64,000 nucleotides of DNA. Source: a virus. The position numbers were made by a program, and so were the translations under genes. The stretch covers positions 62,001 to 126,000 of the IMG/VR virus record IMGVR_UViG_3300007734_000759; one strand, written 5' to 3'. Below the pieces are notes generated by a model. That model was not told the DNA's origin, did no database searches, and worked only from the letters and a program-made list of their open reading frames with translations. Numbering within the stretch: position 1 is the stretch's first letter; each line of letters starts with the position of its first letter. Positions 24,763-60,246 of the stretch are shown here, piece after piece.

Positions 24763-25626
24763 ATGAACAATTTCGATTTGAGAAGATATCTTATTGAAAA
24801 TAAATTAACACGAAATTCTAGAGTATTAAAAGAATCTACCAAACCACAATACTCTCCACAGAAAGCTGCGAAAGCAGCAAATACAGATAATCCATATTCC
24901 GATAGACTACTACAAGCAATCGACCGCATCGATAGTAAGTATGGCTTGATGGAGAGGTTAATATTAGAAGTATCTTTTGAACAACTCAAAGCAGATTTTG
25001 TAGATAGTGGAAAGCTTACACAAGAGGTATTTGATGAAATTGTAGATGCTGCAGGTGGAAAAAAAGAAGTGGAGATGAAAGATGGAAAACCAGAGGAGAA
25101 GATAGTAGGTGGAAAATCAGCTTACGCTACATGGCTAGCTAAGAAAGTAGCTGATCGTGTTATAAAACCTAACGTCGTAGACAGCTTTAAACAATACTTC
25201 TCTATATTCGACAGGCATAGAACGGAGTTCGAAAAGCAAGACTTAAATCAATACAAAACAAAAGAAGATGTATCCACATTGGTAAGAAAGGCAAAAAAGA
25301 TTGCAAGGGCGATAGCAAAAGATCCATCTAAGGAAAAAGGAGTATCTCAGGAAGCCAAATACAAACAATACTTAATAGGTACCGTGGATGGATTTAATGT
25401 TTACAAAATACCACAAGGAGCCACAAACCTGTATGGAATGAACTGCGAGCTAGGTAAAGGAACAGAGTGGTGCACTGCTACTGAGAAAACAAAATTCCAT
25501 TTTAACCATTATGTTAAAAAAGGACCGCTATATGTGTTTATAAAACCGAACTCGAACGAGAAGTATCAATTTGCGTACGAAAGTGACGAGTACAGAGATA
25601 AGGACGACAAACGCTTACTTTGGTAA
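24763..25626 (+). CDS. WCTA-motif protein with leader peptide, possibly 5' half of a split gene
   Basis: A 287-residue protein. The start MNNFDLRRYLIENKL is an amphipathic leader ending around VLKES, of the type seen on several proteins here. The C-terminal part has GMNCELGKGTEWCTATEKTK, then KGPLYVFIKP and KYQFAYESDEY, a domain found in phage and bacterial proteins that often continue into LRR-like repeats. Those repeats follow here as the next gene, in the same reading frame, separated only by one TAA and 18 nt with no other stop. It may therefore be one gene interrupted by a nonsense codon, or two proteins working together. Function unknown. Confidence 0.6.
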   Translation: MNNFDLRRYLIENKLTRNSRVLKESTKPQYSPQKAAKAANTDNPYSDRLLQAIDRIDSKYGLMERLILEVSFEQLKADFVDSGKLTQEVFDEIVDAAGGKKEVEMKDGKPEEKIVGGKSAYATWLAKKVADRVIKPNVVDSFKQYFSIFDRHRTEFEKQDLNQYKTKEDVSTLVRKAKKIARAIAKDPSKEKGVSQEAKYKQYLIGTVDGFNVYKIPQGATNLYGMNCELGKGTEWCTATEKTKFHFNHYVKKGPLYVFIKPNSNEKYQFAYESDEYRDKDDKRLLW

Positions 25627-29712: not shown

Positions 29713-30450
29713 ATGAAAAAATTAAATTTAAAACAAATTATCAAAGAAGAAATACGAAAAATATTAAAAGAAATCACAAATCCATATTCAGTTAATTGGG
29801 TTGAACCCACTAATGAGTATTTTACTCAAGAATTAAGTGAACTTCTTGGAAATGAAATGAGGTTTTCTAAAAAAGAATTCTTTCACCCACAAAACTACGA
29901 TTTGATGTATTCAATACTACCACACACTTTTAAGATGATAGCTGAACATGCAAAAGGTGAAGAAATCAAGAATGAACAGGAAATTAAAAAAATATTGTTA
30001 AATAAAGAAGTAGGGGAATTAATGGACGATTGGGGTGATTTTAGACATACCCTAATGAAAGATTCTGAAGCCAAAACAGAAGCTTTGAGTTTATTTAAAA
30101 AAGGTAAAATGGAAGAATGGCCTGATGATAAAATTAATAAAACTTATTACATGGGGTCATTTAATAAATTATTTCCAAAAATGTTTAAAGACACAACTAC
30201 TTCTGGTTTAATGAAACAAATGAAAGGGGAAACTGGTGAAACCGAACCTCATTTCAAAGGTTACGAGAAAAATATCCAAGATTTTAGAAAAGAGAAAAAA
30301 AGAACATTACCACCACCATTTGTTATGAAATTACCATCAGGTGGGAGAGATGGAAATGAATACACATTAATTGGTGGTCATAAAAGATCTACAATAGCCA
30401 AACAATTAAATGTATCTCCTATATATGTTTGGTTTATAGATTTAGCATAA
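29713..30450 (+). CDS. ParB/sulfiredoxin-fold-like protein inserted between nrdB and nrdA
   Basis: A 245-residue protein from ATG 29713 (8 nt after nrdB). An upstream in-frame start inside nrdB is rejected since that part would be nrdB antiframe. The N-terminus KKLNLKQIIKEEIRKILKEI is a charged amphipathic helix like other leaders in this window. The C-terminal ~60 residues contain FVMKLPSGG, YTLIGGHKRSTIAKQL and PIYVWFIDL, the core of the ParB-like nuclease/transferase fold (GGHKR in place of GxxRxxA). Base composition is visibly more AT-rich than in its neighbours, suggesting later acquisition. Function unknown. Confidence 0.65.
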   Translation: MKKLNLKQIIKEEIRKILKEITNPYSVNWVEPTNEYFTQELSELLGNEMRFSKKEFFHPQNYDLMYSILPHTFKMIAEHAKGEEIKNEQEIKKILLNKEVGELMDDWGDFRHTLMKDSEAKTEALSLFKKGKMEEWPDDKINKTYYMGSFNKLFPKMFKDTTTSGLMKQMKGETGETEPHFKGYEKNIQDFRKEKKRTLPPPFVMKLPSGGRDGNEYTLIGGHKRSTIAKQLNVSPIYVWFIDLA

Positions 30451-35821: not shown

Positions 35822-35834
35822 TATTTATTATAAA
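35822..35834 (+). promoter_or_regulatory. TATTTATTATAAA candidate late-promoter motif
   Basis: Extended form of the ATTTAT motif, ending 7 nt before ATG 35842 (core TATTTAT ends 13 nt before). Confidence 0.4.
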
Positions 35835-35841
35835 ACATAAG

Positions 35842-36702
35842 ATGGCACGAGTATTAAACGAGCAATTTATTAGAATGCAAAAGCTTGCTGGAGTAATTAC
35901 AGAAGGTGAGTATAAGATGAAGATGCAAGAAGCTGATGAACAACAACTTGAAAAAGTAGCAGATGCAGTTGAAAAAAAGGCAGAACAAGTTGCAGACGAT
36001 CCTGAAAAAGCAAAACAAATATTAGCCGCAGTGAAGGCGGCAGGTATAGATATGAATCTCGTAGCACAAGCAGCTGCGCAACTCAAACAGGGAAAAGATC
36101 CTAAAGATGTTTTAACATCGATAGATAGTAAAGCACAAAAGGAAGTCACAGAAGGAGACAATGATAGTGTAAAAACATCTAAAACAAAGAAACTGTTACA
36201 GAACATGGGGCTAGGCTTCCTAGTTGGCGGATCAGCAGGATTCCTGGGTGCAGCAGGTATAGCAGGAGCAGCATTACTTTCAGGACCAGTTGCACCAGCT
36301 GTACTTTTTGCTGCTTTCCTATTAGGAGGAGGAGCGATAGGAGCAGGAATCGGCGCAGCCAATACCAACCGAGGCGATACAGGAGGTAACATACCAGACT
36401 ACATACTTATTCAGAACGCCCAAAAGGATTTTGACGAAGAGCAAGACAAAGCTTACAGAGAAACAGGCCGTCATAGAGAAACACCTAAAAGGGATCAAAT
36501 TTATATTGTCGATAACGGTGCTACACCCGAAGAACTTAAAGGTAAGGATTTATGGAGAAGAAGTTACAAAAATCGGGATGTATTGATTGATTTGTCAAAC
36601 ATTCCTATCTCAACAGACCGGCGTTTCGTACTATCTCCCGAATTAGAAAAAGAAAAAGAAGAATTAGCTCGACTTTCAGATAAGGCATGGCGAGGACGTT
36701 GA
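35842..36702 (+). CDS. Leader-bearing glycine-zipper membrane protein
   Basis: A 286-residue protein. Its start LNEQFIRMQKLAGVITEG (residues 5-22) is the same leader as in two proteins at 42.3-42.9 kb. After a charged helical region (~25-100) comes a hydrophobic Gly/Ala-rich stretch (~125-175: FLVGGSAGFLGAAGIAGAAL, LFAAFLLGGGAIGAGIGAA) able to form two membrane helices or a glycine zipper, then a charged soluble C-terminus. If the leader is a capsid-targeting peptide cleaved after ITE, the product would be packaged and injected, where the hydrophobic part could meet the host membrane. Holin is an alternative, less likely. Confidence 0.65.
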   Translation: MARVLNEQFIRMQKLAGVITEGEYKMKMQEADEQQLEKVADAVEKKAEQVADDPEKAKQILAAVKAAGIDMNLVAQAAAQLKQGKDPKDVLTSIDSKAQKEVTEGDNDSVKTSKTKKLLQNMGLGFLVGGSAGFLGAAGIAGAALLSGPVAPAVLFAAFLLGGGAIGAGIGAANTNRGDTGGNIPDYILIQNAQKDFDEEQDKAYRETGRHRETPKRDQIYIVDNGATPEELKGKDLWRRSYKNRDVLIDLSNIPISTDRRFVLSPELEKEKEELARLSDKAWRGR

Positions 36703-36738
36703 GTAATATTATAAACTATATTCTTAAAAAATCTTAAC

Positions 36739-36768
36739 AAGCCAACTTTATGTTGGCTTTTTCTTTTT
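36739..36768 (+). terminator. Intrinsic terminator
   Basis: AAGCCAAC (36739-36746), 5-nt loop, GTTGGCTT (36752-36759), then T-rich tail. Right arm contains the TTG of the next promoter. Confidence 0.85.
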
Positions 36769-36783
36769 CTGTGCGTATCTTTA
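36753..36783 (+). promoter_or_regulatory. Host-type promoter embedded in terminator
   Basis: TTG (36753-36755) in the hairpin, 20 nt, TATCTTTA (36776-36783). ATG at 36789 is 5 nt after the box, so the mRNA may be leaderless. Confidence 0.75.
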
Positions 36784-36788
36784 AGTAT

Positions 36789-37130
36789 ATGAAAAAATAC
36801 ATAGAAGTAAGATTAGACATTGAAGGTTTACACAACTGGCCAGATTGTAACCTACCACACGTAGATTATTTAGCACATCTACATCGTCACACATTCCAGA
36901 TCTTCTGTAGATCAGAAGTTAGCCATGGTAATCGAGATATTGAATTCATCGATCTCAAGCACAGAGTTAAGAAGTACATTGCCAACACTTGGTACGATCC
37001 AGCTTACGGATGCTGCAACTTTGGTGCAATGAGTTGTGAAATGATTGCCGAAGACCTACTAAACTATTTTGGATTTTGTAGAGTATCTGTATCAGAAGAT
37101 GGTGAGTTTTTTGGAATTGTTGAAATCTAA
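36789..37130 (+). CDS. Conserved phage protein of unknown function, possibly T-fold
   Basis: A 113-residue protein from ATG 36789, the first after the promoter. LHRHTFQIFCRSEVSHGNRD followed by IEFIDLKHRV and YGCCNFGAMSCEMIAEDLL are well-ordered and recall the HxH / DF-xx-LK pattern of tunnelling-fold (QueD/FolB) enzymes, but the catalytic set is incomplete. Family members in other phages are annotated as hypothetical. Neighbouring dNMP kinase-like and FolE genes suggest a pterin or nucleotide link. Stop overlaps the next ATG. Confidence 0.65.
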   Translation: MKKYIEVRLDIEGLHNWPDCNLPHVDYLAHLHRHTFQIFCRSEVSHGNRDIEFIDLKHRVKKYIANTWYDPAYGCCNFGAMSCEMIAEDLLNYFGFCRVSVSEDGEFFGIVEI

Positions 37131-37612
37131 TGAAAGTATTGTTCCTATTCGGAGAGATCTGCTCAGGTAAGAGCACATATGATCCAGGAGCTGAGTATCA
37201 CAGATACACAGTATCATCAGTAGTTAAAAAAATAATGCAAACAGAGGATAGAGCATTGCTTCAAGATTCTAAACACCTTACCGAGCACATTGCAAACACG
37301 ATTTGTGAAGACATCTTCTACTATCAGAATTTTGTATTCGTTGATGAGCAAAGTACTCCTCAATATTTCGTGGTAGACGGGATTAGACAGTATGAAATAC
37401 TAACTATCATTGAAGATTATTTGACACGTACCTACCCGAGTTTAACACTGGAATACAAGTGGTTGGAAGTGGATCGAGAAGAACGTAAACGTAGATTTGA
37501 AGCTCGTAAGGATGTTAAAGATACTTTATCATTTGAAGAAGCAGAAAAAAGAGATAATGAGTTGGGATTATCAACTTTATTTAGTATATTAAAAGAACAA
37601 AATAAAATTTAA
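37130..37612 (+). CDS. P-loop (deoxy)nucleoside monophosphate kinase-like protein
   Basis: A 160-residue small kinase with Walker A GEICSGKST at residues 8-16, a FVVDGIRQYEIL segment, and an LEVDREERKRRFEARKD lid region rich in Arg, as in phage dNMP kinases and adenylate-kinase-like enzymes. It would phosphorylate dNMPs (possibly including modified ones) for DNA synthesis. Overlaps the upstream gene by one base and precedes folE by 2 nt. Confidence 0.75.
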   Translation: MKVLFLFGEICSGKSTYDPGAEYHRYTVSSVVKKIMQTEDRALLQDSKHLTEHIANTICEDIFYYQNFVFVDEQSTPQYFVVDGIRQYEILTIIEDYLTRTYPSLTLEYKWLEVDREERKRRFEARKDVKDTLSFEEAEKRDNELGLSTLFSILKEQNKI

Positions 37613-37614
37613 GT

Positions 37615-38256
37615 ATGGAGTTATTGAAAAAGCCTAATGGCAACATTGTACGAACTGAGGAGGAAAAAGCTCAAATGATCGAACAAGCAGCTGTGTATTA
37701 TGGTCAGTTTTTGAACGCTTTAGGGTTTGACTGGGCTGCTGATGCACACTCAGCAGATACCCCACGTCGAGTGGCTAAAGCATGGGTACATGATTTAATT
37801 AAAGGATCAATTAATGCAGAGCCGAAAATTACTGCTTTTCCTAATGATGAAGGGTACACGGGTATTATAGCACAAACAAGGATACCGGTGGTGAGTATGT
37901 GCGCACACCACAACTTGCAATTCGTTGGTATCTGCCATGCGGCCTACATACCAGGAAAGGAAAACACCGACATGGTTATTGGCCTAAGCAAGCTGAACCG
38001 CATTGTAGATTTCTATGCTCGCAGACCTCAGATTCAGGAAAGTTTGACCAAACAGATCCATGATCATATTGATCGTTTATGTGTAGGTAATCGTGGAGTT
38101 GCTGTGGTAATCGAATCACAACACAATTGTGTACGTTGTCGACAACTTAACCACGAAAGTGTTATGAAAACCTCTCAACTATCTGGATACTTCTTCACGA
38201 ATGAAATAGGCACTCGCACTGAGTTGTTTTCTCTAATCGAGAACTCCAGACTTTAA
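37615..38256 (+). CDS. folE: GTP cyclohydrolase I
   Basis: A 213-residue FolE. It converts GTP to dihydroneopterin triphosphate, the entry step to folate and to 7-deazaguanine synthesis. Zinc and catalytic motifs: DTPRRVAKAW, VVSMCAHHNLQFVGICHAAY (Cys and His ligands, with Ala in place of the usual Glu of CEHH), GLSKLNRIVDFYARRPQIQE and NCVRCRQLNHES. With QueD- and QueE-like genes 3-5 kb upstream and a DpdA-like gene downstream it forms a DNA-modification pathway. Confidence 0.95.
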   Translation: MELLKKPNGNIVRTEEEKAQMIEQAAVYYGQFLNALGFDWAADAHSADTPRRVAKAWVHDLIKGSINAEPKITAFPNDEGYTGIIAQTRIPVVSMCAHHNLQFVGICHAAYIPGKENTDMVIGLSKLNRIVDFYARRPQIQESLTKQIHDHIDRLCVGNRGVAVVIESQHNCVRCRQLNHESVMKTSQLSGYFFTNEIGTRTELFSLIENSRL

Positions 38257-38274
38257 TCTTTCAGGAATGTCGGC

Positions 38275-38287
38275 TATTTATTACAAA
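38275..38287 (+). promoter_or_regulatory. TATTTATTACAAA candidate promoter motif
   Basis: ATTTAT-type motif 18 nt before the HNH gene's ATG (core 38275-38281). Confidence 0.35.
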
Positions 38288-38299
38288 TAAACTAATACA

Positions 38300-39049
38300 A
38301 TGGCTGACATTTCATCTATTAAAGTTAACAAAGGAGATGTGTTTGGACACTGGACTGTTGTAAGCATCTACACAGCCCAGAAGGTTGAGTGTGTATGTAG
38401 ATGTGGGTATGTTAAAGAACAAAGACAAACAGACCTACTCAGAGGGGCAACTAAACAATGTCCAAGTTGCTATGCTAAAAAACCTAAGGCAGGAATTGAA
38501 ACAGGAAAGAGGTTTGGTAAGTGGACGGTTGTCGACGTTGAGGACTATACCTACCTGTATAGGAGGAATGGAAAGGTACTAGAGAGGCAGTATAGATGTA
38601 TTTGCGATTGTGGAACAGAAAAGTACATCAGAACATCACACATAACCAGAGGGCTATCAAAACAATGTGGCACGTGCCGTATGATGGATTACTCGGTAAG
38701 TACCGTAGGTTGTATACCAACCACAGATATTAAGAGGTATAAGGCAGGAGCAGCCAAGCGAAATAAGGAATGGAATATCACTTCCGAGTACTTATACGAA
38801 CTATACGAGAAGCAAAATAGGCTTTGTGCTCTGACAGGTATACCCATACAGTTTTCTCAAAAAGGTATAGGGACTCCAGGAGCTAAGGATGTTAGCACAG
38901 CTTCTCTTGATCGAATAGATTCGACGAAAGGGTACACACCTGATAACATACAGTGGATACATAAGGATGTAAATAAAATGAAAATGGATTTGGAAGAACT
39001 AAATTTTCTTCGTATAGTTAAACAAATATACGAATACAAACAACTATAA
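38300..39049 (+). CDS. HNH homing endonuclease with N-terminal zinc-ribbon DNA-binding region
   Basis: A 249-residue free-standing endonuclease. Residues ~1-130 hold two repeats of a G-x-x-FGxWTVV...C-x-CG...CxxC unit (VCRCGYVKEQ/QCPSCYAKK and ICDCGTEKYI/QCGTCRMMD), zinc-ribbon DNA-binding modules common in phage HNH proteins. The C-terminal nuclease has CALTGIPIQF, ASLDRIDSTKGYTPDNIQWI and HKDVNKMKMDL, a typical HNH core. It is inserted between folE and the DpdA-like gene with a private upstream motif; a selfish element. Confidence 0.85.
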   Translation: MADISSIKVNKGDVFGHWTVVSIYTAQKVECVCRCGYVKEQRQTDLLRGATKQCPSCYAKKPKAGIETGKRFGKWTVVDVEDYTYLYRRNGKVLERQYRCICDCGTEKYIRTSHITRGLSKQCGTCRMMDYSVSTVGCIPTTDIKRYKAGAAKRNKEWNITSEYLYELYEKQNRLCALTGIPIQFSQKGIGTPGAKDVSTASLDRIDSTKGYTPDNIQWIHKDVNKMKMDLEELNFLRIVKQIYEYKQL

Positions 39050-39059
39050 AAAAATTAAT

Positions 39060-39854
39060 ATGATGGATTTCTATGTAATATCTCCAGTAAGTGATCTTTC
39101 ACCTATGGATCTAGGTAACCGAATCTTCGTATTGGCTCACCTATGGGTACAGTTCCCACACTATCAGAATCACATTCTACAGAAAAAGGAAGAAGGATAC
39201 TGGATTACCTTAGATAACTCTGCAGCAGAACGAGCTCTAGTAACAGAGGATGTATTAATTGACGTATGCCACGAATTGATGCCTGACGAAGTAATTGCAC
39301 CTGATGTATTGTTCGATAAGGATGCAACTATCCAAAACGCAATCAAGTTTAGAGAGCGAATGGAAGAAGAAGGATTGTTAGGTACTATCGACATCTTCTT
39401 TTGCCCTCAAGGAGCAACTAAAGAGGATTGGTTAGAGGCATACGAATGGGGTATCAACCAAGACTGGATTAATGTAATTGGTTTCTCTAAGATTGCTATT
39501 CCAAATGCATGGCTTCCAGAGTGGAAAGATGATCAAGGAATCAAAGAAGCTCGTCATGCAGCATACGATTACCTGAAGGAAAGAGATATGTTAAAGAAGC
39601 CTATCCATTGCCTTGGCCAGGGGGATCCAACAGAATTCACATACTACGACCATCCAATGATGCGAAGCACAGACTCAGTATTCCCAGTACTAGCTGCTTC
39701 TTTAGGACAGGACTTCCGCATTGATCACGAGACTCGTACTCCAACACCTCACAACTTCTTAGAGACTTACGATATGAGTAAAGTAGATAAGGAGCTTATC
39801 AGAGCTAATGTTGAGTTCTTGAAGATGAGTTGTACAGGAGATCTATTAATCTAA
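39060..39854 (+). CDS. dpdA: DpdA-like DNA 7-deazaguanine transglycosylase
   Basis: A 264-residue TGT-like TIM-barrel protein. DpdA enzymes replace guanine in DNA with a 7-deazaguanine base. Marks: YWITLDNSAAERA (family LDNGAxE, substrate-binding Asp), ELMPDEVIAPDVLFDKDATI, IDIFFCPQGATKEDWLEAYE, and MRSTDSVFPVLAASLG with Asp205 as the expected nucleophile (family R-x-x-D-S/T). It is short, as phage DpdA are, and lacks the tRNA-binding zinc site of TGT. Co-location with FolE, QueD and QueE supports the role. Initial ATGATG allows a start at 39060 or 39063. Assignment by motif pattern only. Confidence 0.72.
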   Translation: MMDFYVISPVSDLSPMDLGNRIFVLAHLWVQFPHYQNHILQKKEEGYWITLDNSAAERALVTEDVLIDVCHELMPDEVIAPDVLFDKDATIQNAIKFRERMEEEGLLGTIDIFFCPQGATKEDWLEAYEWGINQDWINVIGFSKIAIPNAWLPEWKDDQGIKEARHAAYDYLKERDMLKKPIHCLGQGDPTEFTYYDHPMMRSTDSVFPVLAASLGQDFRIDHETRTPTPHNFLETYDMSKVDKELIRANVEFLKMSCTGDLLI

Positions 39855-39876
39855 CACACCACCCAGATGATAAATC

Positions 39877-39900
39877 AAGCCAACTTTTTGTTGGCTTTTT
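39877..39900 (+). terminator. Intrinsic terminator after dpdA-like gene
   Basis: AAGCCAAC (39877-39884), TTTTT loop, GTTGGCTT (39890-39897), then T's. Nearly the same stem as the terminator at 36739. Confidence 0.88.
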
Positions 39901-39921
39901 TATTTTTTATGCGTATCTTTA
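39891..39921 (+). promoter_or_regulatory. Host-type promoter embedded in terminator, before DNA polymerase
   Basis: TTG (39891-39893) in the stem, 20 nt, TATCTTTA (39914-39921); ATG at 39928 after 6 nt, so probably leaderless. Confidence 0.78.
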
Positions 39922-39927
39922 ATCAAT

Positions 39928-42234
39928 ATGAGCAATAAGAGTTATAAAATCATTACTACGCAAGAAGGTGTAGTTGAGTTGATGGAACATATCGAAAAGC
40001 ATAACATAATAGCTTTTGATACTGAAACCACAACCTTGAATCCAAGACACGGACAGATCATTGGATTCTCAGTATCAGGGCAAATAGGAGAGGGATATTA
40101 TTTTCCTACTCGTATTTGGAACCCTACTTCTCAACAAATCGAAGACTTAGAGATAGCAGGAATATCTTGTGATAAGATTGCAAAGAAGTTATTGAAGATG
40201 TTAGTAGGTAAACAGCTTGTCATGCACAACGCATCATTCGATACTCGATACACTAAGAACTTCTACGGTATAGACTTACTTCCTTCTCTATGGGTCGATA
40301 CAGGATTGCTAGTACATACAGTACAGGAAGAAGGAGCTTTTGGATTTGGTAATCCTTTTGGATTGAAATCTATTGCAATCATGGTTCAGAAAGAGATTGG
40401 ACTTGATGTAGAGAAAGCAGCTAACGAAGAGCAGTTAATCCTTAAAGAGAATATCAAAGCTAACGGAGGATCAACCACAAAGGAAAACTTTGAAATCTTC
40501 AAAGCAGATATGCAAATACTTGGAGAATATGCTGCAGCAGATACTGACTTAACTTTACGAATCTGTAATCACTTTTTAGAAATCTTAGAGAAAGAAGGTC
40601 TAACTGATTTCTTTTTTGAGGAAGAAGTTATGCCTCTATACCGAGAAGTAACAGTTCTAATGGAGGACAGAGGTATTGCTTTGGATATGGAACTGATCGA
40701 AAAGACAGATACACAGATTCAAGAAGATCAGAGACTGTATGGTAAGAAGGTACTAGATTCTCTGATGGCTTTACCTAAGACAAGAGAATGGATTATCGAT
40801 CAAGCATTTAAAGAATGTCCACCATCCCATAAAGGAAAGTGGGCAAGTGTATACGCTGAGATGCGACAACTACCACTACCTAAGACAGCTAAAGGATATT
40901 CTTTAACAGCAAAAACATTAGCAGTACTTACTGATCCTATGGATATTGCTTTTTTAAAGGACGGAAATATCGAAGCAGTACCTGAGGAATTCAGAGCTAA
41001 GATCTCTCTAAAACTATGGAAAGAGAAGAACGATGGAGTTTACATCAACATCCAATCAAAAGTCCAGCTAGGAGATATTGCATTCAACTACTTAGGTATT
41101 AAGCCACTATCAACAACTGCAAAAGGAAAACCACAGTTTGATGATGATATATTAGAGGCACTTGCTCCTAAACACGACTGGGCAGAGAACTTACGAATCT
41201 ATAACAAGCTATTGAAGATTAAATCTACATACATTGATAGGTTCTATCTTAAAGCAGAGGATGGAATCTTCTATCCCTACTTTAAACAAAACGGAACAGT
41301 ATCAGGACGTTATGGATCGGACATGCAACAGCTTCCCAAACCAAAAGAGGATGGAGAGGCAGCAGAGATTGTAGTTAGATACAATAACGAGATTCGAGCT
41401 TTCTTCAAAAGCAGACCAGGCTATAAGTTTGTAGATTGCGACTACGAATCATTAGAACCTCACTTATTTGCTTCAGTATCGGATGATAAGAACCTGCAAG
41501 AGATCTTTAATAACGGATATGACTTCTACTCCTATGTAGCGATTAGAACTGAGAAGATGGAAGGAGTATCCGCAGATAAGAAAGCACCTAACTTTTTGAA
41601 GAAAGTAGATCCAGTAAAGAGACAAAGAGCTAAGTCGTATTCACTTGGAATGGCTTATGGTATGAGTCCTTATGCATTAGCGATGTCGTTAGGAATTGAT
41701 AAGAAGGAAGGAGCACAACTGCACTCTGCTTACTTAGAAGGGTTCCCTGGTGTAGCTAACTGGATTGATAAGTCAAGAGAGCATTTCAAAGAACACGGAT
41801 ACGTTAAGAATAAAGTAGGACGTATTAGACATTTGAATAAAGGTAAAGAAGTGTACGATGTACTAGGAGAATCTATTATGGATTTCAAAGTACGTAAGAC
41901 TCTTTCACAGGAATATGGAACAGAAGCAGTACAAAAGTGGTATGGAGATTACAGAAACGCTCTGAACAACTGTTTGAACTTTCAAATCCAATCCTTTGCA
42001 GCATCAGTAGTGAATAGAGCAGCGCTAGCAATCAATAGAGCTTTCAAAGAAAGAGGATGGGATGCACAAGTAATAGCACAGATCCATGACCAATTAGTTA
42101 TGGAAGTGGCAGAGGAACACGCAGAGGAAGCAGCTAAGATTGTACAGCATCTAATGCAAACAACCACACAACCTCCAGGCATCACTCTAAAAGCACCACC
42201 AGAGATCGCAACTAACCTTAGAGATGGGCATTAA
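39928..42234 (+). CDS. DNA polymerase, family A with 3'-5' exonuclease
   Basis: A 768-residue replicative-type polymerase. Exonuclease: FDTETTTLNPRHGQIIGFS (Asp31, Glu33), HNASFDTRY, and YAAADTDLTLRI. Polymerase: motif A DCDYESLEPHLFA (Asp505, steric-gate Glu kept), motif B RQRAKSYSLGMAYGMSP, motif C QIHDQLVMEV (Asp721). Unlike T4 (family B gp43), this phage pairs T4-type gp32, UvsX, gp41 and RNase H with a PolA enzyme, and also has a second truncated PolA at 21.0 kb. Own terminator-embedded promoter, with the ATG 6 nt after the box. Confidence 0.95.
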   Translation: MSNKSYKIITTQEGVVELMEHIEKHNIIAFDTETTTLNPRHGQIIGFSVSGQIGEGYYFPTRIWNPTSQQIEDLEIAGISCDKIAKKLLKMLVGKQLVMHNASFDTRYTKNFYGIDLLPSLWVDTGLLVHTVQEEGAFGFGNPFGLKSIAIMVQKEIGLDVEKAANEEQLILKENIKANGGSTTKENFEIFKADMQILGEYAAADTDLTLRICNHFLEILEKEGLTDFFFEEEVMPLYREVTVLMEDRGIALDMELIEKTDTQIQEDQRLYGKKVLDSLMALPKTREWIIDQAFKECPPSHKGKWASVYAEMRQLPLPKTAKGYSLTAKTLAVLTDPMDIAFLKDGNIEAVPEEFRAKISLKLWKEKNDGVYINIQSKVQLGDIAFNYLGIKPLSTTAKGKPQFDDDILEALAPKHDWAENLRIYNKLLKIKSTYIDRFYLKAEDGIFYPYFKQNGTVSGRYGSDMQQLPKPKEDGEAAEIVVRYNNEIRAFFKSRPGYKFVDCDYESLEPHLFASVSDDKNLQEIFNNGYDFYSYVAIRTEKMEGVSADKKAPNFLKKVDPVKRQRAKSYSLGMAYGMSPYALAMSLGIDKKEGAQLHSAYLEGFPGVANWIDKSREHFKEHGYVKNKVGRIRHLNKGKEVYDVLGESIMDFKVRKTLSQEYGTEAVQKWYGDYRNALNNCLNFQIQSFAASVVNRAALAINRAFKERGWDAQVIAQIHDQLVMEVAEEHAEEAAKIVQHLMQTTTQPPGITLKAPPEIATNLRDGH

Positions 42235-42249
42235 TCGTGAACAACAGAC

Positions 42250-42262
42250 TATTTATAATTAA
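42250..42262 (+). promoter_or_regulatory. TATTTATAATTAA candidate late-promoter motif
   Basis: ATTTAT-type motif 14 nt (from core end 42256) before ATG 42271. Confidence 0.4.
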
Positions 42263-42339
42263 AAACAAATATGAAACAACCATTAAATGAACAATTCCGC
42301 AGAATGCAAAAACTTGCTGGAATTATTACTGAAGGAATG
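42261..42339 (+). repeat. Leader-coding direct repeat, copy 1
   Basis: 79 nt covering the upstream AAAAACAAAT and codons 1-23 of the first small leader protein; matches 42599-42677 at 74 of 79 positions by eye, after which the two genes are unrelated. Confidence 0.85.
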
Positions 42340-42597
42340 TCATCTACCGCTACTTACGAAGGCGATCCTGTAACTATAGTTGCAATGTATGATAACATTG
42401 GAGATGCTGTTGAAGGAGCAAAGAAATACTTAGACGGAGGTAATGGAGAGATCACCTCAGATCAGTGGATGGATGCTGATGGAAGATATTATATGCAAGA
42501 TCTTGCTGGAAGCACTCAAATTGCTCACATCGCAGGCGTAGGAGAAGTTCCAGGATCTCAACCACCTATGTTAGTAGATGCTTCTGAGCTAGACTAA
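42271..42597 (+). CDS. Leader-bearing small protein A (putative internal head protein)
   Basis: A 108-residue protein. Residues 1-22 (KQPLNEQFRRMQKLAGIITE then G) are an amphipathic basic leader shared with 42609 and 35842; the rest is acidic and unrelated to the neighbour (STATYEGDPVTIVAMYDNIG..., DQWMDADGRYYMQDLAG). T4 internal proteins carry short capsid-targeting leaders removed by the prohead protease after (L/I)-x-E; ITE|G fits. The prediction is that the mature ~86-residue part is packaged and injected. No known domain in the cargo. Confidence 0.65.
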   Translation: MKQPLNEQFRRMQKLAGIITEGMSSTATYEGDPVTIVAMYDNIGDAVEGAKKYLDGGNGEITSDQWMDADGRYYMQDLAGSTQIAHIAGVGEVPGSQPPMLVDASELD

Positions 42598-42598
42598 T

Positions 42599-42677
42599 AA
42601 AAACAAATATGAAACAACAACTAAATGAGCAATTCCGCAGAATGCAAAAACTTGCTGGAATTATCACCGAAGGAATG
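42599..42677 (+). repeat. Leader-coding direct repeat, copy 2
   Basis: Second copy of the 79-nt repeat (see 42261-42339); five mismatches, four of them synonymous, one Pro to Gln at residue 4. Confidence 0.85.
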
Positions 42678-42926
42678 GAAGGTGGAACACAGTACGACAT
42701 ACTACAGAATGGTGAAGGAGGAGAGGATTTTTTCCAAGATAAAGAAGAGATAGTACAATACTTTGAACGCCGAGGAATACTAAACTTTGAACTAGAAGAT
42801 GGTGAGCAGATCAGCGTAGAGGATGGAGTTGATAGAATGATGAATGGAGAGACTCTGGTAGTAACAAACGAAGAGTTGGTAGAGATGGGAGATGACTATG
42901 CTGAATGGTCTGTTGAAGAAGTGTAA
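42609..42926 (+). CDS. Leader-bearing small protein B (putative internal head protein)
   Basis: A 105-residue protein whose first 22 residues are almost identical to protein A (only Pro4 to Gln), while the rest is a different, strongly acidic sequence (GGTQYDILQNGEGGEDFFQD, FERRGILNFELEDGEQISVE). The same leader joined to an unrelated cargo argues that the leader has a targeting role, here proposed as capsid packaging with cleavage after ITE. Acidic cargo could be a DNA mimic, which would suit an anti-restriction or anti-nuclease role; speculative. Followed by a terminator. Confidence 0.65.
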   Translation: MKQQLNEQFRRMQKLAGIITEGMEGGTQYDILQNGEGGEDFFQDKEEIVQYFERRGILNFELEDGEQISVEDGVDRMMNGETLVVTNEELVEMGDDYAEWSVEEV

Positions 42927-46061: not shown

Positions 46062-46264
46062 TGAAACACTTTATCCACTATACAGTAAAATGGATTGCAG
46101 GAAACTTATCGATACCTTTTTGGATGGTAGGTCATGTGCACCTAAGCTTGAATGTATATGAGGATATTTACGAGATCCTGGCGTCATTAGGAATGAACAT
46201 CTTAGTTGGCGCTGGGTTCTTTTTAGAATGGAAAGAATATAAAAACCAGTTAAATAATAAATGA
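46061..46264 (+). CDS. Small membrane-like protein
   Basis: A 67-residue protein with two hydrophobic segments: ~8-30 (TVKWIAGNLSIPFWMVGHVH) and ~40-57 (ILASLGMNILVGAGFFLEW), followed by a charged C-terminus. Two predicted membrane helices make it a candidate inner-membrane protein; holin-like in size, but no evidence of lysis genes next to it. ATGA overlap with the next gene. Confidence 0.55.
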   Translation: MKHFIHYTVKWIAGNLSIPFWMVGHVHLSLNVYEDIYEILASLGMNILVGAGFFLEWKEYKNQLNNK

Positions 46265-46515
46265 TGGAAAATCAACAACAGATGAAGTTGAATATCGACT
46301 TCAATAACACCACAGGTGTAGAATCAGAAGATGGAAATGTAGTGTTTCAAGAAGGATTTATTCTTCGTAGAGTATCTAAATTTGTAACAGGAACACAAGA
46401 AGACGGCATCATCCCCATCCCAGTATTCTACGACGTTGCAACAGGAAAGATTTTGAAAGAGACATTACCTAAGGAAATCCGTAAGTTTTACGAGGATGGA
46501 TCAACTGAAGGATAA
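46261..46515 (+). CDS. Small hypothetical protein
   Basis: An 84-residue soluble protein (VVFQEGFILRRVSKFVTGTQ, PIPVFYDVATGKILKETLP), all-beta in appearance. Not recognised, though similar small proteins are frequent in T4-like marine phages. Starts by ATGA overlap; a second ATG at 46264 is equally possible. Overlaps the next gene by 20 nt. Confidence 0.6.
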   Translation: MMENQQQMKLNIDFNNTTGVESEDGNVVFQEGFILRRVSKFVTGTQEDGIIPIPVFYDVATGKILKETLPKEIRKFYEDGSTEG

Positions 46516-46759
46516 GATCACGGAAGCAGTTATCGAGGACTTAAAGTCTCGAAGTGAGAGAGGTATTAAGAAGTACAACACAACTTTGGACCAGAATAAC
46601 AAAGACAACTACATGCAACACGCATACGAAGAAGCCTTGGATCTGGCTCAGTACCTCAAAAAGGAAATGTCTATCATTCCAGATCTACAACAGATGATGA
46701 TGGATTATCCAAACGATATTGAATTTGCTCAGGCAGTTCGTAAAAAGTATTCTAAGTAA
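46496..46759 (+). CDS. Small helical protein, MazG-like pattern
   Basis: An 87-residue helical protein. The pattern RSERGIKKYNTTLDQNNKDN followed by YMQHAYEEALDLAQYLKKEM resembles small phage proteins related to all-alpha NTP pyrophosphohydrolases (MazG/dUTPase-like), where EExxD residues bind Mg; here E-E-A-L-D is kept. If active it would hydrolyse an abnormal NTP. Stop overlaps the ATG of the nuclease gene. Confidence 0.5.
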   Translation: MDQLKDKITEAVIEDLKSRSERGIKKYNTTLDQNNKDNYMQHAYEEALDLAQYLKKEMSIIPDLQQMMMDYPNDIEFAQAVRKKYSK

Positions 46760-47688
46760 TGGCAAAGAAAGTACCTTCTGCTGTAAAGCAAATACAAAAC
46801 CATATATTGATGGAGCAAGGAGAGACTAAAGCAATCTCATTCTCTCAAATGCAGACATATTTAACCTGCCCTCACAAATGGGATTTGCAGTACCGGCAGA
46901 AGTTACTTCCTTTTGAACAGTCAATACATACAACTTTTGGAACAAGCTTCCACGAGCTGATGCAACACTACTTGACAACTCTATACACAGAGACAGCTAA
47001 AGCAGCAGATCAAATCGATGCACAGCAGTACTTACTTGAAAGACTGCAACACAATTACAGAGAGGGTGTAGAGCAGAACGGAGAACACTACTCAACCAAA
47101 CAACAACTTGCAGAGTTCTATGAAGATGGTTTAGCTATCTTCGAATGGTTTCGTAAAAAAAGAACTGCATACTTCACAACTAAAGGTTGGCATTTAGTAG
47201 GAGTTGAGATTCCGTTACTAACCCCTGCGTTTGACAGTAATCCTAACGTGTTATACAAAGGATTTATCGATTTGGTGATGTACGATGAGGGTAGTGAGAA
47301 ATATTACATCTACGACATCAAAACATCTACAAGAGGATGGGGAGATAGAGAAAAGAAAGATCCAACCAAAGTAGCACAAGTACTCCTATATAAAAAGTAC
47401 TACGCTCAGCAATTTAACGTTAGTGAGGATCAAATCGAAGTAGAATTCTTTATTGTTAAGAGGAAGCTGATGGAGAACTGCGACTTTCCTCAAAAAAGAG
47501 TTCAGCTATTTAAACCTACACAAGGAGCAGCCAAGGTAAAGGCAGCAGTACAATTAGTACATGACTTCATCACTGACTGTTTCGATGAGCAAGGTAAACC
47601 TATTGAAAAGGAATATACAAAGAATCTTAATGAGTATTCTTGTAAGTTTTGTCCATTTTTAGATCGAAATGATCTATGTAGTAAATGA
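46759..47688 (+). CDS. PD-(D/E)XK nuclease with Fe-S cluster (RecB/Cas4-like)
   Basis: A 309-residue nuclease. Active site: Asp171 in YKGFIDLVMY and Asp186-Ile-Lys188 in YIYDIKTST, the PD-(D/E)XK core, plus an N-terminal His in SFHELMQHYL. Four cysteines (Cys37 in LTCPHKW; Cys295, Cys298 and Cys307 near the C-terminus) match the 4Fe-4S clasp of AddB, Dna2 and Cas4. It likely trims DNA ends during recombination or degrades host DNA. Last gene of the chaperonin-containing unit. Confidence 0.88.
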   Translation: MAKKVPSAVKQIQNHILMEQGETKAISFSQMQTYLTCPHKWDLQYRQKLLPFEQSIHTTFGTSFHELMQHYLTTLYTETAKAADQIDAQQYLLERLQHNYREGVEQNGEHYSTKQQLAEFYEDGLAIFEWFRKKRTAYFTTKGWHLVGVEIPLLTPAFDSNPNVLYKGFIDLVMYDEGSEKYYIYDIKTSTRGWGDREKKDPTKVAQVLLYKKYYAQQFNVSEDQIEVEFFIVKRKLMENCDFPQKRVQLFKPTQGAAKVKAAVQLVHDFITDCFDEQGKPIEKEYTKNLNEYSCKFCPFLDRNDLCSK

Positions 47689-47696
47689 TAAAACAT

Positions 47697-47715
47697 ATAT
47701 ATTTATATATAAATA
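47697..47715 (+). promoter_or_regulatory. ATTTAT motif merged with T4-like TATAAATA
   Basis: ATATATTTAT (47697-47706) runs into TATAAATA (47708-47715), the T4 late consensus on the + strand. Both lie within 32 nt of ATG 47728. Confidence 0.4.
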
Positions 47716-47727
47716 ACTGTTACGAAC

Positions 47728-47904
47728 ATGGATACCAAAGGAAGAGTTTTAACAAGTGTGAAGGTCGATAAAGACATCTTCGAAGAGTACAAAGTAGCTT
47801 GTGTCAAGTACAAATTTAATTTTCAGAAGCTTGCCGATAGAGCAATGCATCTTTATCTAACAGACGAGGACTTTAGAAGAAAATTAAATAGTCATAAGTT
47901 GTAA
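47728..47904 (+). CDS. 58-residue ribbon-helix-helix regulator-like protein
   Basis: A small ORF (MDTKGRVLTSVKVDKDIFEE start) with the Arc/MetJ pattern: a basic N-terminal strand GRVLTSVKVDKDIF, helix EEYKVACVKYKFNF, and helix QKLADRAMHLYLTDEDFRRK. RHH proteins are dimeric DNA-binding repressors. It stands alone between the nuclease and the sugar island. The TTG of the next promoter is the last sense codon of this gene, which would suit autoregulation or control of the sugar genes. Function inferred from fold pattern. Confidence 0.65.
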   Translation: MDTKGRVLTSVKVDKDIFEEYKVACVKYKFNFQKLADRAMHLYLTDEDFRRKLNSHKL

Positions 47905-47929
47905 GTATTAAATTTAGTTACTATATTAG
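47899..47929 (+). promoter_or_regulatory. Host-type promoter at the head of the sugar island
   Basis: TTG (47899-47901, last codon of the RHH gene), 20 nt, TATATTAG (47922-47929); ATG at 47947. Confidence 0.7.
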
Positions 47930-47946
47930 TTTTATAAATCAAATTT

Positions 47947-49380
47947 ATGGAAATGAAACAGGGTTATATCCCAAAAAATCAAAGAAAGAAAATCTTACTG
48001 ATGTGCGATGATATTCGAATGCACTCAGGAGTGGCTAACGTAGGTAAGGATTTAGTTATCCATCTAGCACATAAGTACAATTGGCTCAACATTGGAGGAG
48101 CAATTAACCACCCTGAGGCAGGACAAAAGCTGGATATTTCACAAGACACTAATAAACTAGCAGGCATTGAAGATTCTGAGGTATTCGTAATTCCCTCTAA
48201 CGGGTACGGAGATCAAATGTTCCTTCGTCAAATCTTACAAATTGAGAAACCGGATGCTATCTTTTTAATTACCGATCCTAGATACTGGGCTTGGTTATTC
48301 GCAATGGAAAATGAAATTCGTAAGAATATACCAATTGTTTACTTAAACATCTGGGATGATTATCCTGCACCACAATACAATGAAGCGTTTTACGAATCTT
48401 GTGATGCTCTTCTTGCAATTTCAAAACAGACTAAGAATATCAATGAGATTGTATTAGGAGCAAAAGCTAAAAGTAAAATTATTGAGTATGTTCCTCATGG
48501 GATAAATGAAAATAATTTCTTTCCTATTAGTACTACTGATATTGAATACAATAATTTTAAAAATAGATTATTAGGAGGTGAGAAGGATTTTGTATTACTA
48601 TTCAATTCTCGAAACATTCGTAGAAAACAAATCGCAGACACAATCTTAGCATATAAACATTTTATTGACGGACTATCGGAAGAGCAAGCTAAAAAATGTG
48701 CTTTTGTATTGCATACACAACCAGTGGATGAGAATGGAACTGATCTGTATGCAGTTAAAGAATATTTCTGCTCCGATGAAAAGTACAACATTATATTCTC
48801 AGATAAGCCACTTCCTCCTAAAGAGATGAACTACCTATACAACATGGCAGATGCTACTATCTTATTAACTTCTAACGAAGGTTGGGGATTGGCATTGACA
48901 GAGAGTTTAGTAGCAGGTACTTGCATTATCGCAAACGTAACAGGAGGTATGCAAGATCAAATGCGATTTGTAGATAAGAAAGGAAAATGGATTAACTTCA
49001 CACCTGAGTTCCCATCTAACCATAGAGGAACCTTTAAGAAGTGTGGAGAGTGGGCATTTCCTGTATTTCCAACTAACTTATCAATTCAAGGGTCGGTTCC
49101 TACACCTTACATCTTCGACGATAGATGTTCTTGGGAGGACGCTGCTAAGCAAATAAAAGCAGTATACAGTTTACCAAAGCAAGAAAGAATTGAAAGAGGT
49201 TTGAAAGGTAGAGAATGGGCTACAGGAGATGAAGCAGGATTCACAGCCGAGAAGATGGCAAAACGAGCTGAGAACGCTATGGAGGAGTTGTTTGAAACTT
49301 GGAAACCACGAAAGAAGTATGAACTAGTGGCTGACACAGATTATACTAAGAAAACCCTTAAACATAATTTGATTTATTAA
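47947..49380 (+). CDS. Glycosyltransferase, GT-B fold (GT4-like)
   Basis: A 477-residue GT-B enzyme. N-terminal domain: KKILLMCDDIRMHSGVANVG and the EYVPHGINENNFFPI linker; C-terminal domain: LFNSRNIRRKQ, MNYLYNMADATILLTSNEGW and GLALTESLVAGTCIIANVTGGM, the E-x7-E donor-binding region of GT4. It transfers a sugar from a nucleotide donor to a glycan or protein acceptor. First gene of the island, with its own promoter; the next gene is a related enzyme one base downstream. Confidence 0.85.
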   Translation: MEMKQGYIPKNQRKKILLMCDDIRMHSGVANVGKDLVIHLAHKYNWLNIGGAINHPEAGQKLDISQDTNKLAGIEDSEVFVIPSNGYGDQMFLRQILQIEKPDAIFLITDPRYWAWLFAMENEIRKNIPIVYLNIWDDYPAPQYNEAFYESCDALLAISKQTKNINEIVLGAKAKSKIIEYVPHGINENNFFPISTTDIEYNNFKNRLLGGEKDFVLLFNSRNIRRKQIADTILAYKHFIDGLSEEQAKKCAFVLHTQPVDENGTDLYAVKEYFCSDEKYNIIFSDKPLPPKEMNYLYNMADATILLTSNEGWGLALTESLVAGTCIIANVTGGMQDQMRFVDKKGKWINFTPEFPSNHRGTFKKCGEWAFPVFPTNLSIQGSVPTPYIFDDRCSWEDAAKQIKAVYSLPKQERIERGLKGREWATGDEAGFTAEKMAKRAENAMEELFETWKPRKKYELVADTDYTKKTLKHNLIY

Positions 49381-58540: not shown

Positions 58541-59574
58541 TCATCCCAGCTGCAGGCAAGTCATCTAGGTATCCTAATATGAAACCTAAATGGATGCTGA
58601 CACACCCATCAGGAAAATTAATGATTGAAAAAGTTGTCGATGGATTAAAAATAGACGATTATGAGAAAGTCTACTTCGTCGTCTTGAAAGAGCATTGCAT
58701 CGAGCACGATGCGGCTTTTATACTAAAGCAAGCTTTTCCTGATGATATCTTCGAAGTAGTGGTTCTAGAGTCCCCAACACAAAGCAGTCCAGAAACAGTA
58801 TACCAGTGTATTAAGTTACGCGATATTGAAAGCAGCATTGTGGTAAAAGATTGTGATTGTTTAGTTGAATATGAGATTCCCGATACAACTAATTTTGTTG
58901 TAGGTTTGCCTTTAACCGACAAGTGGAATGTTAAAAATTTACAACAAAAATCATTTGTCATAGCTAACCAAGATAGTGTTGTTCAAGAGATTGTAGAAAA
59001 GAAAATAGTATCAGATATCGTATGCGTAGGAGTATACGGAATGAATGCTCAAGATATGGTAAGATCGTATGAGAAACTTTTAAACATACTATCTCGAGAA
59101 ATGTACTTTAGCCACATAGTTTCTGATATGGTAGATACATCCGGTGTGATTTTCAAGACAGTCGAGGCTAACAACTTCGTCGACTGGGGAACGAAGGAGG
59201 AATGGTTCTCAACAACTACTATGAAGACCACTTACCTATTTGACGTTGATGGGGTGGTGTTGTTCAATACTGGAAAGTATGGAAGAGAGAATTGGTTTAA
59301 TACCATTAAACCCATAGAGGAAAATATAAACCTAATCAAACAGTTGTCAGATGAGGGAAATGAGATTATCTTTATAACATCGAGAACTAAAGATGCGATC
59401 GTATTATTTGAGAAATTTTTAGAAGATAGAGGTATAACATATAAAACAATAATCCACTCTTGCCTACATTCGAAACGAATCCTAATCAACGACTTTGCAA
59501 CCAGCAACCCATTTCCAAGTTGCTTAGCTATCAGCATCCCAAGAAACCAATCTATAAAACTGTACTTAAAATAA
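58498..59574 (+). CDS. Bifunctional NTP-transferase / HAD-like protein
   Basis: A 358-residue fusion. Residues ~10-235 are a nucleotidyltransferase (PTLIIPAAGKSSRYPNMKPK, the G-x-x-x-R signature loop, then KDCDCLVEY as metal site and FVVGLPLTDKWNVKNLQQ). From ~242 on it is HAD-like: YLFDVDGVVLFNTGKYG (Asp249, Asp251), IIFITSRTKDAIVLFEKFL and RILINDFATSNP. Such fusions occur in capsule and LPS loci. Met242 could be a separate internal start for the HAD domain. Substrate unknown. Confidence 0.78.
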   Translation: MHDKKREIANKPTLIIPAAGKSSRYPNMKPKWMLTHPSGKLMIEKVVDGLKIDDYEKVYFVVLKEHCIEHDAAFILKQAFPDDIFEVVVLESPTQSSPETVYQCIKLRDIESSIVVKDCDCLVEYEIPDTTNFVVGLPLTDKWNVKNLQQKSFVIANQDSVVQEIVEKKIVSDIVCVGVYGMNAQDMVRSYEKLLNILSREMYFSHIVSDMVDTSGVIFKTVEANNFVDWGTKEEWFSTTTMKTTYLFDVDGVVLFNTGKYGRENWFNTIKPIEENINLIKQLSDEGNEIIFITSRTKDAIVLFEKFLEDRGITYKTIIHSCLHSKRILINDFATSNPFPSCLAISIPRNQSIKLYLK

Positions 59575-59598
59575 TTTAAAACTTAAACATAAAAAATA

Positions 59599-60246
59599 AT
59601 GAACGACCTAAACATCCACTTAGGATGGTTAGCGCAGATTCCTCAAGATTTAGATTTGGTTCTGGATTTAGGAGCTAACCACGGCGATTTTTTAATTGAG
59701 GCTTTAGTCTCACCTTCTGGCAAAAAAAACATTAATCAATTCGTGTATTTTGAACCTGATCCCGAAAACTTCAACATCTGCCAATCTCGACTAAACTCCT
59801 ACGAATTTGCACAGGGTCACAATATTGGAATTTACTATGGACATGATCAATCTAGTGTTAATGGAGTAGGAGATAATAACGTCGGAGGTTATATGGTTTC
59901 ACATATCGATCCTCTATACACAGCGCAGTGGGCAACCCCAACAAGCAACCCTTGGAATAAGCACCTAACAACCTATCCAGATAAGATCTTCACTTTAAAA
60001 CCTCTAGAGACTATCATCAACAGACCAGCCGACTTAGTGAAGATGGATATAGAAGCTTCAGAGTGGAACGTTATCGAACACTCGACTCTACTTAAAGTTA
60101 GTAATTACTTAATGATAGAATGGCATAATATTCCAAATTACGAAACTGAAGGGATGTCTTATGTTTTCGATTTTATTACTAAACATCTACCCAACCACAT
60201 TATAATAGATGCTACAAAAGGATATACATTTTTAAAACTCAAATAA
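59599..60246 (+). CDS. FkbM-family methyltransferase
   Basis: A 215-residue SAM-dependent O-methyltransferase: LVLDLGANHGDFLIEAL (SAM loop), QFVYFEPDPENFNICQSRL, and LVKMDIEASEWNVIEHSTLL with the C-terminal EWHNIPNYETEGM. FkbM enzymes methylate sugar or polyketide hydroxyls; in this cluster a glycan O-methylation is likely. Starts after a 24-nt A-rich gap. Confidence 0.85.
   Translation: MNDLNIHLGWLAQIPQDLDLVLDLGANHGDFLIEALVSPSGKKNINQFVYFEPDPENFNICQSRLNSYEFAQGHNIGIYYGHDQSSVNGVGDNNVGGYMVSHIDPLYTAQWATPTSNPWNKHLTTYPDKIFTLKPLETIINRPADLVKMDIEASEWNVIEHSTLLKVSNYLMIEWHNIPNYETEGMSYVFDFITKHLPNHIIIDATKGYTFLKLK

Follow-up and report, generated by a model that had tools for sequence, protein, structure and literature searches.

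The window analysed here comprises 64,000 nucleotides, bases 62001-126000 of the 159,435-base record of a 159-kb phage. Three of its proteins, all encoded on the + strand, open with the same leader (leader A, LNEQFxRMQKLAGxITE|G or a near variant) and differ over the rest of their length. Leader-A protein 1 (35842..36702, +, 286 aa; N-terminus MARVLNEQFIRMQKLAGVITEG) carries the leader MARVLNEQFIRMQKLAGVITE (35842..35904, +), which resembles the scaffold tail RMKKLAGL described below and for which we propose cleavage after ITE. The leader is followed by a predicted membrane-hairpin body with a Gly-rich hydrophobic stretch at about residues 120-175, and the hydropathy maximum of this body (2.07) is the highest among all cargo families. 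The other two genes form a pair. Leader-A protein 2 (42271..42597, +, 108 aa; N-terminus MKQPLNEQFRRMQKLAGIITEG) joins the leader MKQPLNEQFRRMQKLAGIITE (42271..42333, +) to a small acidic body with a mature charge of -12, and the downstream gene of the pair encodes leader-A protein 3 (42609..42926, +, 105 aa; N-terminus MKQQLNEQFRRMQKLAGIITEG), in which the leader MKQQLNEQFRRMQKLAGIITE (42609..42671, +) precedes a small, very acidic body with a mature charge of -21.

Once the leaders are removed, the bodies of 42271 and 42609 do not align (E=0.76), and the three bodies fall into three separate clusters. The first-pass annotation had described a common leader on otherwise unrelated proteins, and the open reading frames, the non-aligning bodies and the clustering all confirm it. 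The leader regions of 42271 and 42609, upstream part included, share 71 of 76 bases, hence part of their identity reflects recent DNA copying, with the leader region of 42609 a recent copy of that of 42271. Structure prediction with AlphaFold, run on each sequence by itself, gave low confidence (mean pLDDT 46 for 35842 and 39 for 42271). When all open reading frames of the genome were searched with the leader core, the additional matches were a fourth leader-A protein at genome position 136220, outside the window (N-terminus MKDIIRMNQLAGLITEGQ), and the extreme C-terminus of the scaffold.

The motif TATTTATNATAAAA lies about 20 bases before the start codon of every leader-A transcription unit in this phage, three in all, and within the window it occurs as TATTTATTATAAAA (35822..35835, +, 0 mismatches) and TATTTATAATTAAA (42250..42263, +, 1 mismatch). 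At no more than one mismatch there are 15 sites in the genome, including those upstream of the portal, tail sheath and other structural genes. In Flavobacterium phage immuto, the nearest isolated relative (capsid protein 57% identical, same head gene order), the motif with 0 or 1 mismatch precedes the sheath, tube and tail-spike genes, leader protein 25061 and two short-leader proteins. Allowing up to two mismatches, it precedes 31% of 127 leader genes gathered from viral contigs versus 10% of control genes taken from the same loci with mechanically called starts (p=2e-9), and it was found in about 5% of shuffled upstream sequences. From the genes downstream of it we infer that TATTTATNATAAAA is a putative late promoter, and its presence before portal, sheath and leader genes alike favours their joint expression. 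A separate repeated promoter-like element, GTATCTTTAAGTAT, stands before many small genes, upstream of window position 36789 and at about 20 other places along the genome.

Head operon, scaffold tail and proposed cleavage sites

A T4-type head operon (gp20/gp21/gp23) lies directly upstream of the window, in the order terminase, portal, two small genes and a 347-aa gene, prohead protease, a 445-aa acidic protein and major capsid protein. The Pfam assignments (Portal_T4 4e-65, Peptidase_S77 2e-29, Gp23 1e-73) are concordant with those from PHROGs. The 445-aa acidic protein had no match in a family search; we call it the scaffold because it sits between the protease and capsid genes, the same place as T4 gp22. 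Its C-terminus reads ...DAVIARMKKLAGL (...IARMKKLAGL), and that of the immuto scaffold ...EQVSRWQKLAGIIK (...SRWQKLAGIIK). Two immuto proteins start with MKKQILSEQF(K/R)RMQ(F/K)LAGIITES, and the immuto tail-to-leader matches score 49 and 42 while other C-termini reach 34 at most. In the phage under study each single tail-to-leader match is non-significant against other C-termini, with leader proteins making up four of the five best matches.

The peptide ends the gene between the gp21-type protease and the gp23-type capsid gene in this phage, in immuto and in more than 100 contigs. Scaffold tails gathered through the capsid protein, and thus without selection on the tail motif, nearly all end in [VI]-x-E, 5-8 residues, then R[MWF]xxLAG[IL]. 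The tail also extends to more distant phages: in Microcystis phage Mel-JY01 (capsid 49% identical) the gene preceding that for the capsid protein finishes with ERMKKLAGIVK, and in Rhodothermus phage RM378 (capsid 35% identical) the corresponding gene finishes with LERIKRLAGL. As a search of these two phages for leader-type proteins found none, the scaffold tail probably predates its use as a leader, which would be the derived form. Strict covariation of leader and scaffold tail within single genomes was considered and rejected, since RMQ leaders also occur in phages whose scaffold tails are of RWQ or RFK type. That leaders do not track the M/W/F residue of their own scaffold tail suggests that leader cassettes move between phages and that the dock tolerates those residues. 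The scaffolds of this phage and of immuto (genome G000 58638-59975; immuto 125626-126867) each have a tandem repeat of about 50 residues inside the protein, with a unit that differs between the two phages.

T4 gp21 cleaves after L/I-x-E (PMC9026906), and sites of this kind recur in the head proteins and leaders. In the major capsid protein, a Glu close to residue 60, preceded by [LI][VIL]x, is invariant (135 of 136 aligned sequences, with one gap) and corresponds in position to the T4 gp23 site; in the scaffold, [VI]xE directly precedes the tail; and leaders finish IITE|[GNSE]. A phi-x-E site occurs within nine residues after LAG in all 19 cargo proteins of the first scan, which were not selected for such a site, versus 10% of body windows. 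Four of the 127 leader proteins are without a nearby phi-x-E site. Removal of the leader by the gp21-type protease, for which a Peptidase_S77 gene is present, is the best reading of these sites.

Census of the peptide, its bodies and alternative leaders

Viral contigs were scanned with the degenerate DNA of RMQKLAGI, the figures being those of a sample of at least 120 translated matches. Among the 120 matches listed, 84 end the gene adjoining, and just upstream of, a gp23-type capsid gene and five are the ends of truncated scaffolds; 25 are N-termini of unrelated proteins, four are C-termini of other proteins and two are ambiguous. A cargo-specific pattern that leaves out scaffold tails, the 33-base degenerate RMQKLAGI-I-(T/S)-E, was found in 73 viral contigs and was absent from 84,980 prokaryote genomes (257 Gb). 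By these counts the occurrence of the leader is far beyond chance. Leader variants with W or F were seen in only four contigs. The third codon positions of the leader, free in the search pattern, vary freely across the family, which indicates that conservation acts on the peptide, not on the DNA, in a test made partly circular by a search pattern that fixed codon positions 1 and 2.

A search for the leader on other cargos, suggested in the first-pass annotation, yielded 127 non-redundant leader proteins, which BLASTP grouped into 72 body clusters (54 singletons). Homologues of these bodies in other phages often bear a different leader at the same place. The alternatives are type B (FDLKKFLVENKLT...), type C (L-x-QIIKEE..., a weak and low-complexity motif) and a very short leader, MKL-x-x-IILES. 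One body (C096) has leader A in one contig and leader C in the phage under study (genome 136730); another (C032) has leader A in one contig and leader B in immuto. A membrane family, C041, occurs with leaders A, B and C as well as the short leader, and is widespread (L019, L045, L070, L079, L100, L101, L109, L117, L204, L367 and immuto 102294); it is a candidate ejected membrane component. The 72 unrelated bodies and the swapping of leaders exclude the idea, raised in the first-pass annotation as a possible refutation, that the leader is simply part of one conserved domain.

Two further proteins of the window bear alternative leaders, in both cases with no promoter motif. The protein at 24763..25626 (+) opens with the type B leader MNNFDLRRYLIENKLTRNSRVLKE; type B was found on 14 unrelated bodies and is swapped with leader A on shared bodies, so this is a probable second targeting leader. 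The protein at 29713..30450 (+) opens with the type C leader MKKLNLKQIIKEEIRKILKE, which is a possible third, since elsewhere among the phages types C and A replace one another on common bodies. The first-pass annotation had placed both proteins beside the leader-A set; the general design is indeed held in common, but the leader sequences differ. The A peptide is also found at the C-terminus of non-scaffold proteins (L030 10419-11087, L032 12686-13351, L087 9121-9978, L098 47-1831). Three of the C-terminally tagged proteins also have a C-type N-terminus, with no head gene nearby, and the position of the peptide away from the head genes suggests that it may act as a tag at either end.

Mature cargo is acidic, with a median of -0.083 charges per residue versus -0.019 for the proteins of the phage under study, and nearly all bodies were without a known family when compared with Pfam and PHROGs. 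Predicted membrane proteins are present among the cargo, 35842 being the most hydrophobic. One leader-A protein (L165 4604-5464) contains a DnaQ/RNase T exonuclease domain and is a candidate packaged nuclease. As to the counter-defence effectors suggested in the first-pass annotation, the results gave support in neither direction. Upstream of the window, the phage encodes an Fe/Mn superoxide dismutase (genome G000 47433-48122) in which the domain begins at residue 25, preceded by an extension that resembles a leader (MITLLEILKEAS); a relative from another contig has MINLIQLLTEA. The dismutase has a neighbour at 46089-46646, and a ferritin-like gene lies nearby.

Proposed loading of proteins into the head

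We consider it likely that the leader is a capsid-targeting sequence which reproduces the C-terminal tail of the gp22-type scaffold encoded by the same phage and is cut by the gp21-type protease. A capsid-targeting role had been suggested from the window alone, and it gains support from the identity with the scaffold tail, the head operon, the capsid maturation site, the shared promoter motif, the 72 bodies and the leader swapping. Counting against it are the lack of a strict fit between leader and scaffold tail within single genomes, the mostly acidic cargo where T4 internal proteins are basic, the four leader proteins with no phi-x-E site nearby, the non-significance of each single tail-to-leader match in this phage and the low confidence of the AlphaFold models. 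Under this reading, the tail helix R-[MWF]-x-x-L-A-G-[IL] would dock in the growing prohead, the major capsid protein being the most likely partner, on its inward-facing side. Late-expressed cargo with an N-terminal copy of the peptide would dock at the site used by the tail and be built into the prohead. The protease would then cut after phi-x-E (ITE|G), as in the capsid propeptide and before the scaffold tail, freeing mature cargo within the head to exit with the DNA at infection. Docking on the capsid protein is suggested by the C-terminal position and deep conservation of the tail, and by analogy with the scaffolds of P22 and herpesviruses, whose C-terminus binds the shell; the LAG tail would likewise dock the scaffold on the capsid protein and be removed at maturation. 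The scaffold core itself may be an alternative dock.

The scaffold dock could also serve accessory core or assembly factors that are later degraded or lost and not injected. T4 has factors of this kind in its core proteins gp67 and gp68 (PMC9026906), and many of the cargo proteins are small and acidic, as core proteins are. However, 72 unrelated, fast-changing bodies, with membrane and exonuclease-domain proteins among them, have the look of variable cargo, and bodies pass between phages under different leaders, hence we regard this explanation as unlikely. The short amphipathic helix formed by the leader (moment 0.51) and the membrane-protein bodies would also suit a helix that docks more generally, on some other late phage structure or on the host envelope, its likeness to the scaffold stemming from a common partner. 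Such a role is very improbable given that the scaffold works inside the prohead, that the cleavage motif fits the head protease and that the cellular genomes gave zero matches (257 Gb of prokaryote sequence). The 71 of 76 bases common to 42271 and 42609, upstream region included, could point to a mobile 5' gene cassette, a ribosome site and first codons serving expression, with a peptide that has no role. Yet the peptide stays fixed while third codon positions vary, it forms the C-terminus of scaffolds and of other proteins, and the cleavage site is retained, which leaves such a cassette scarcely credible as the explanation. In a literature search of partial coverage, no virion proteomics was found for leader-bearing phages, for immuto or for the immuto host strain.

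The preferred reading, a targeting peptide copied from the scaffold tail, can be compared with several known systems. The capsid-targeting sequences (CTS) of T4 IPI, IPII and IPIII and the propeptide of Alt are, like leader A, short N-terminal propeptides on unrelated bodies; the T4 CTS ends at a gp21-type phi-x-E site and its cargo is interchangeable (PMC9026906, PMC3012670), a design that leader A resembles. There is no sequence homology between leader A (RMQKLAGI-type) and the T4 CTS MKTYQEFIAE. Leader A matches the scaffold tail, whereas the T4 CTS is unlike the gp22 tail, and when the T4 CTS was tried as a copy of gp22 or another tested core protein, no significant ungapped match was obtained. 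Leader-A cargo is mostly acidic and far more varied in type, whereas the T4 internal proteins are basic. That leader A works like the T4 CTS through an unrelated sequence is the best reading of this comparison.

In engineered loading of P22, the C-terminal coat-binding part of the scaffold brings fused cargo into the procapsid (PMC9962691). The P22 fusions are laboratory constructs, whereas here natural genes appear to employ a short tail peptide that is usually N-terminal and has a cleavage site. In herpesviruses the scaffold binds the capsid protein through its C-terminus, which the maturation protease removes by cutting just before that end (PMC12474303); the phage scaffold tail similarly follows a protease-type site, a likeness of arrangement. 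For ejection proteins of SPN3US/phiKZ, N-terminal propeptides have been proposed that direct them to the head and are cut after Glu (PMC7411985), although those described are long (>100 residues) and leader A is short.

Implications for candidate head cargo in this phage group

What is new in these results is the connection between leader and scaffold tail, and no earlier description of a scaffold-tail leader was found in a literature search of partial coverage. To our knowledge, the determinants of head entry have been worked out mainly in T4, and even there the partner of the targeting peptide is known only broadly, as the core. In the present phages the sequence of the peptide suggests a mechanism, mimicry of the scaffold tail, and immuto is an isolated phage in which this reading can be tested. 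The tag may also be used as bioinformatic bait for many unknown candidate injected proteins in metagenomes.

In this phage group, a removable N-terminal copy of the scaffold tail probably serves to bring many unrelated small proteins into the head. On balance, we favour the broader view that, in a T4-type clade of aquatic phages, probably infecting Bacteroidota, any late gene that gains a copy of the scaffold tail or another short leader may become head cargo. If true, such open loading would use at least two other interchangeable short leaders beside the scaffold-tail copy, and would imply injected protein families numbering from dozens to hundreds, most of them unknown, with membrane proteins and enzymes among them, recognisable from the tag alone.
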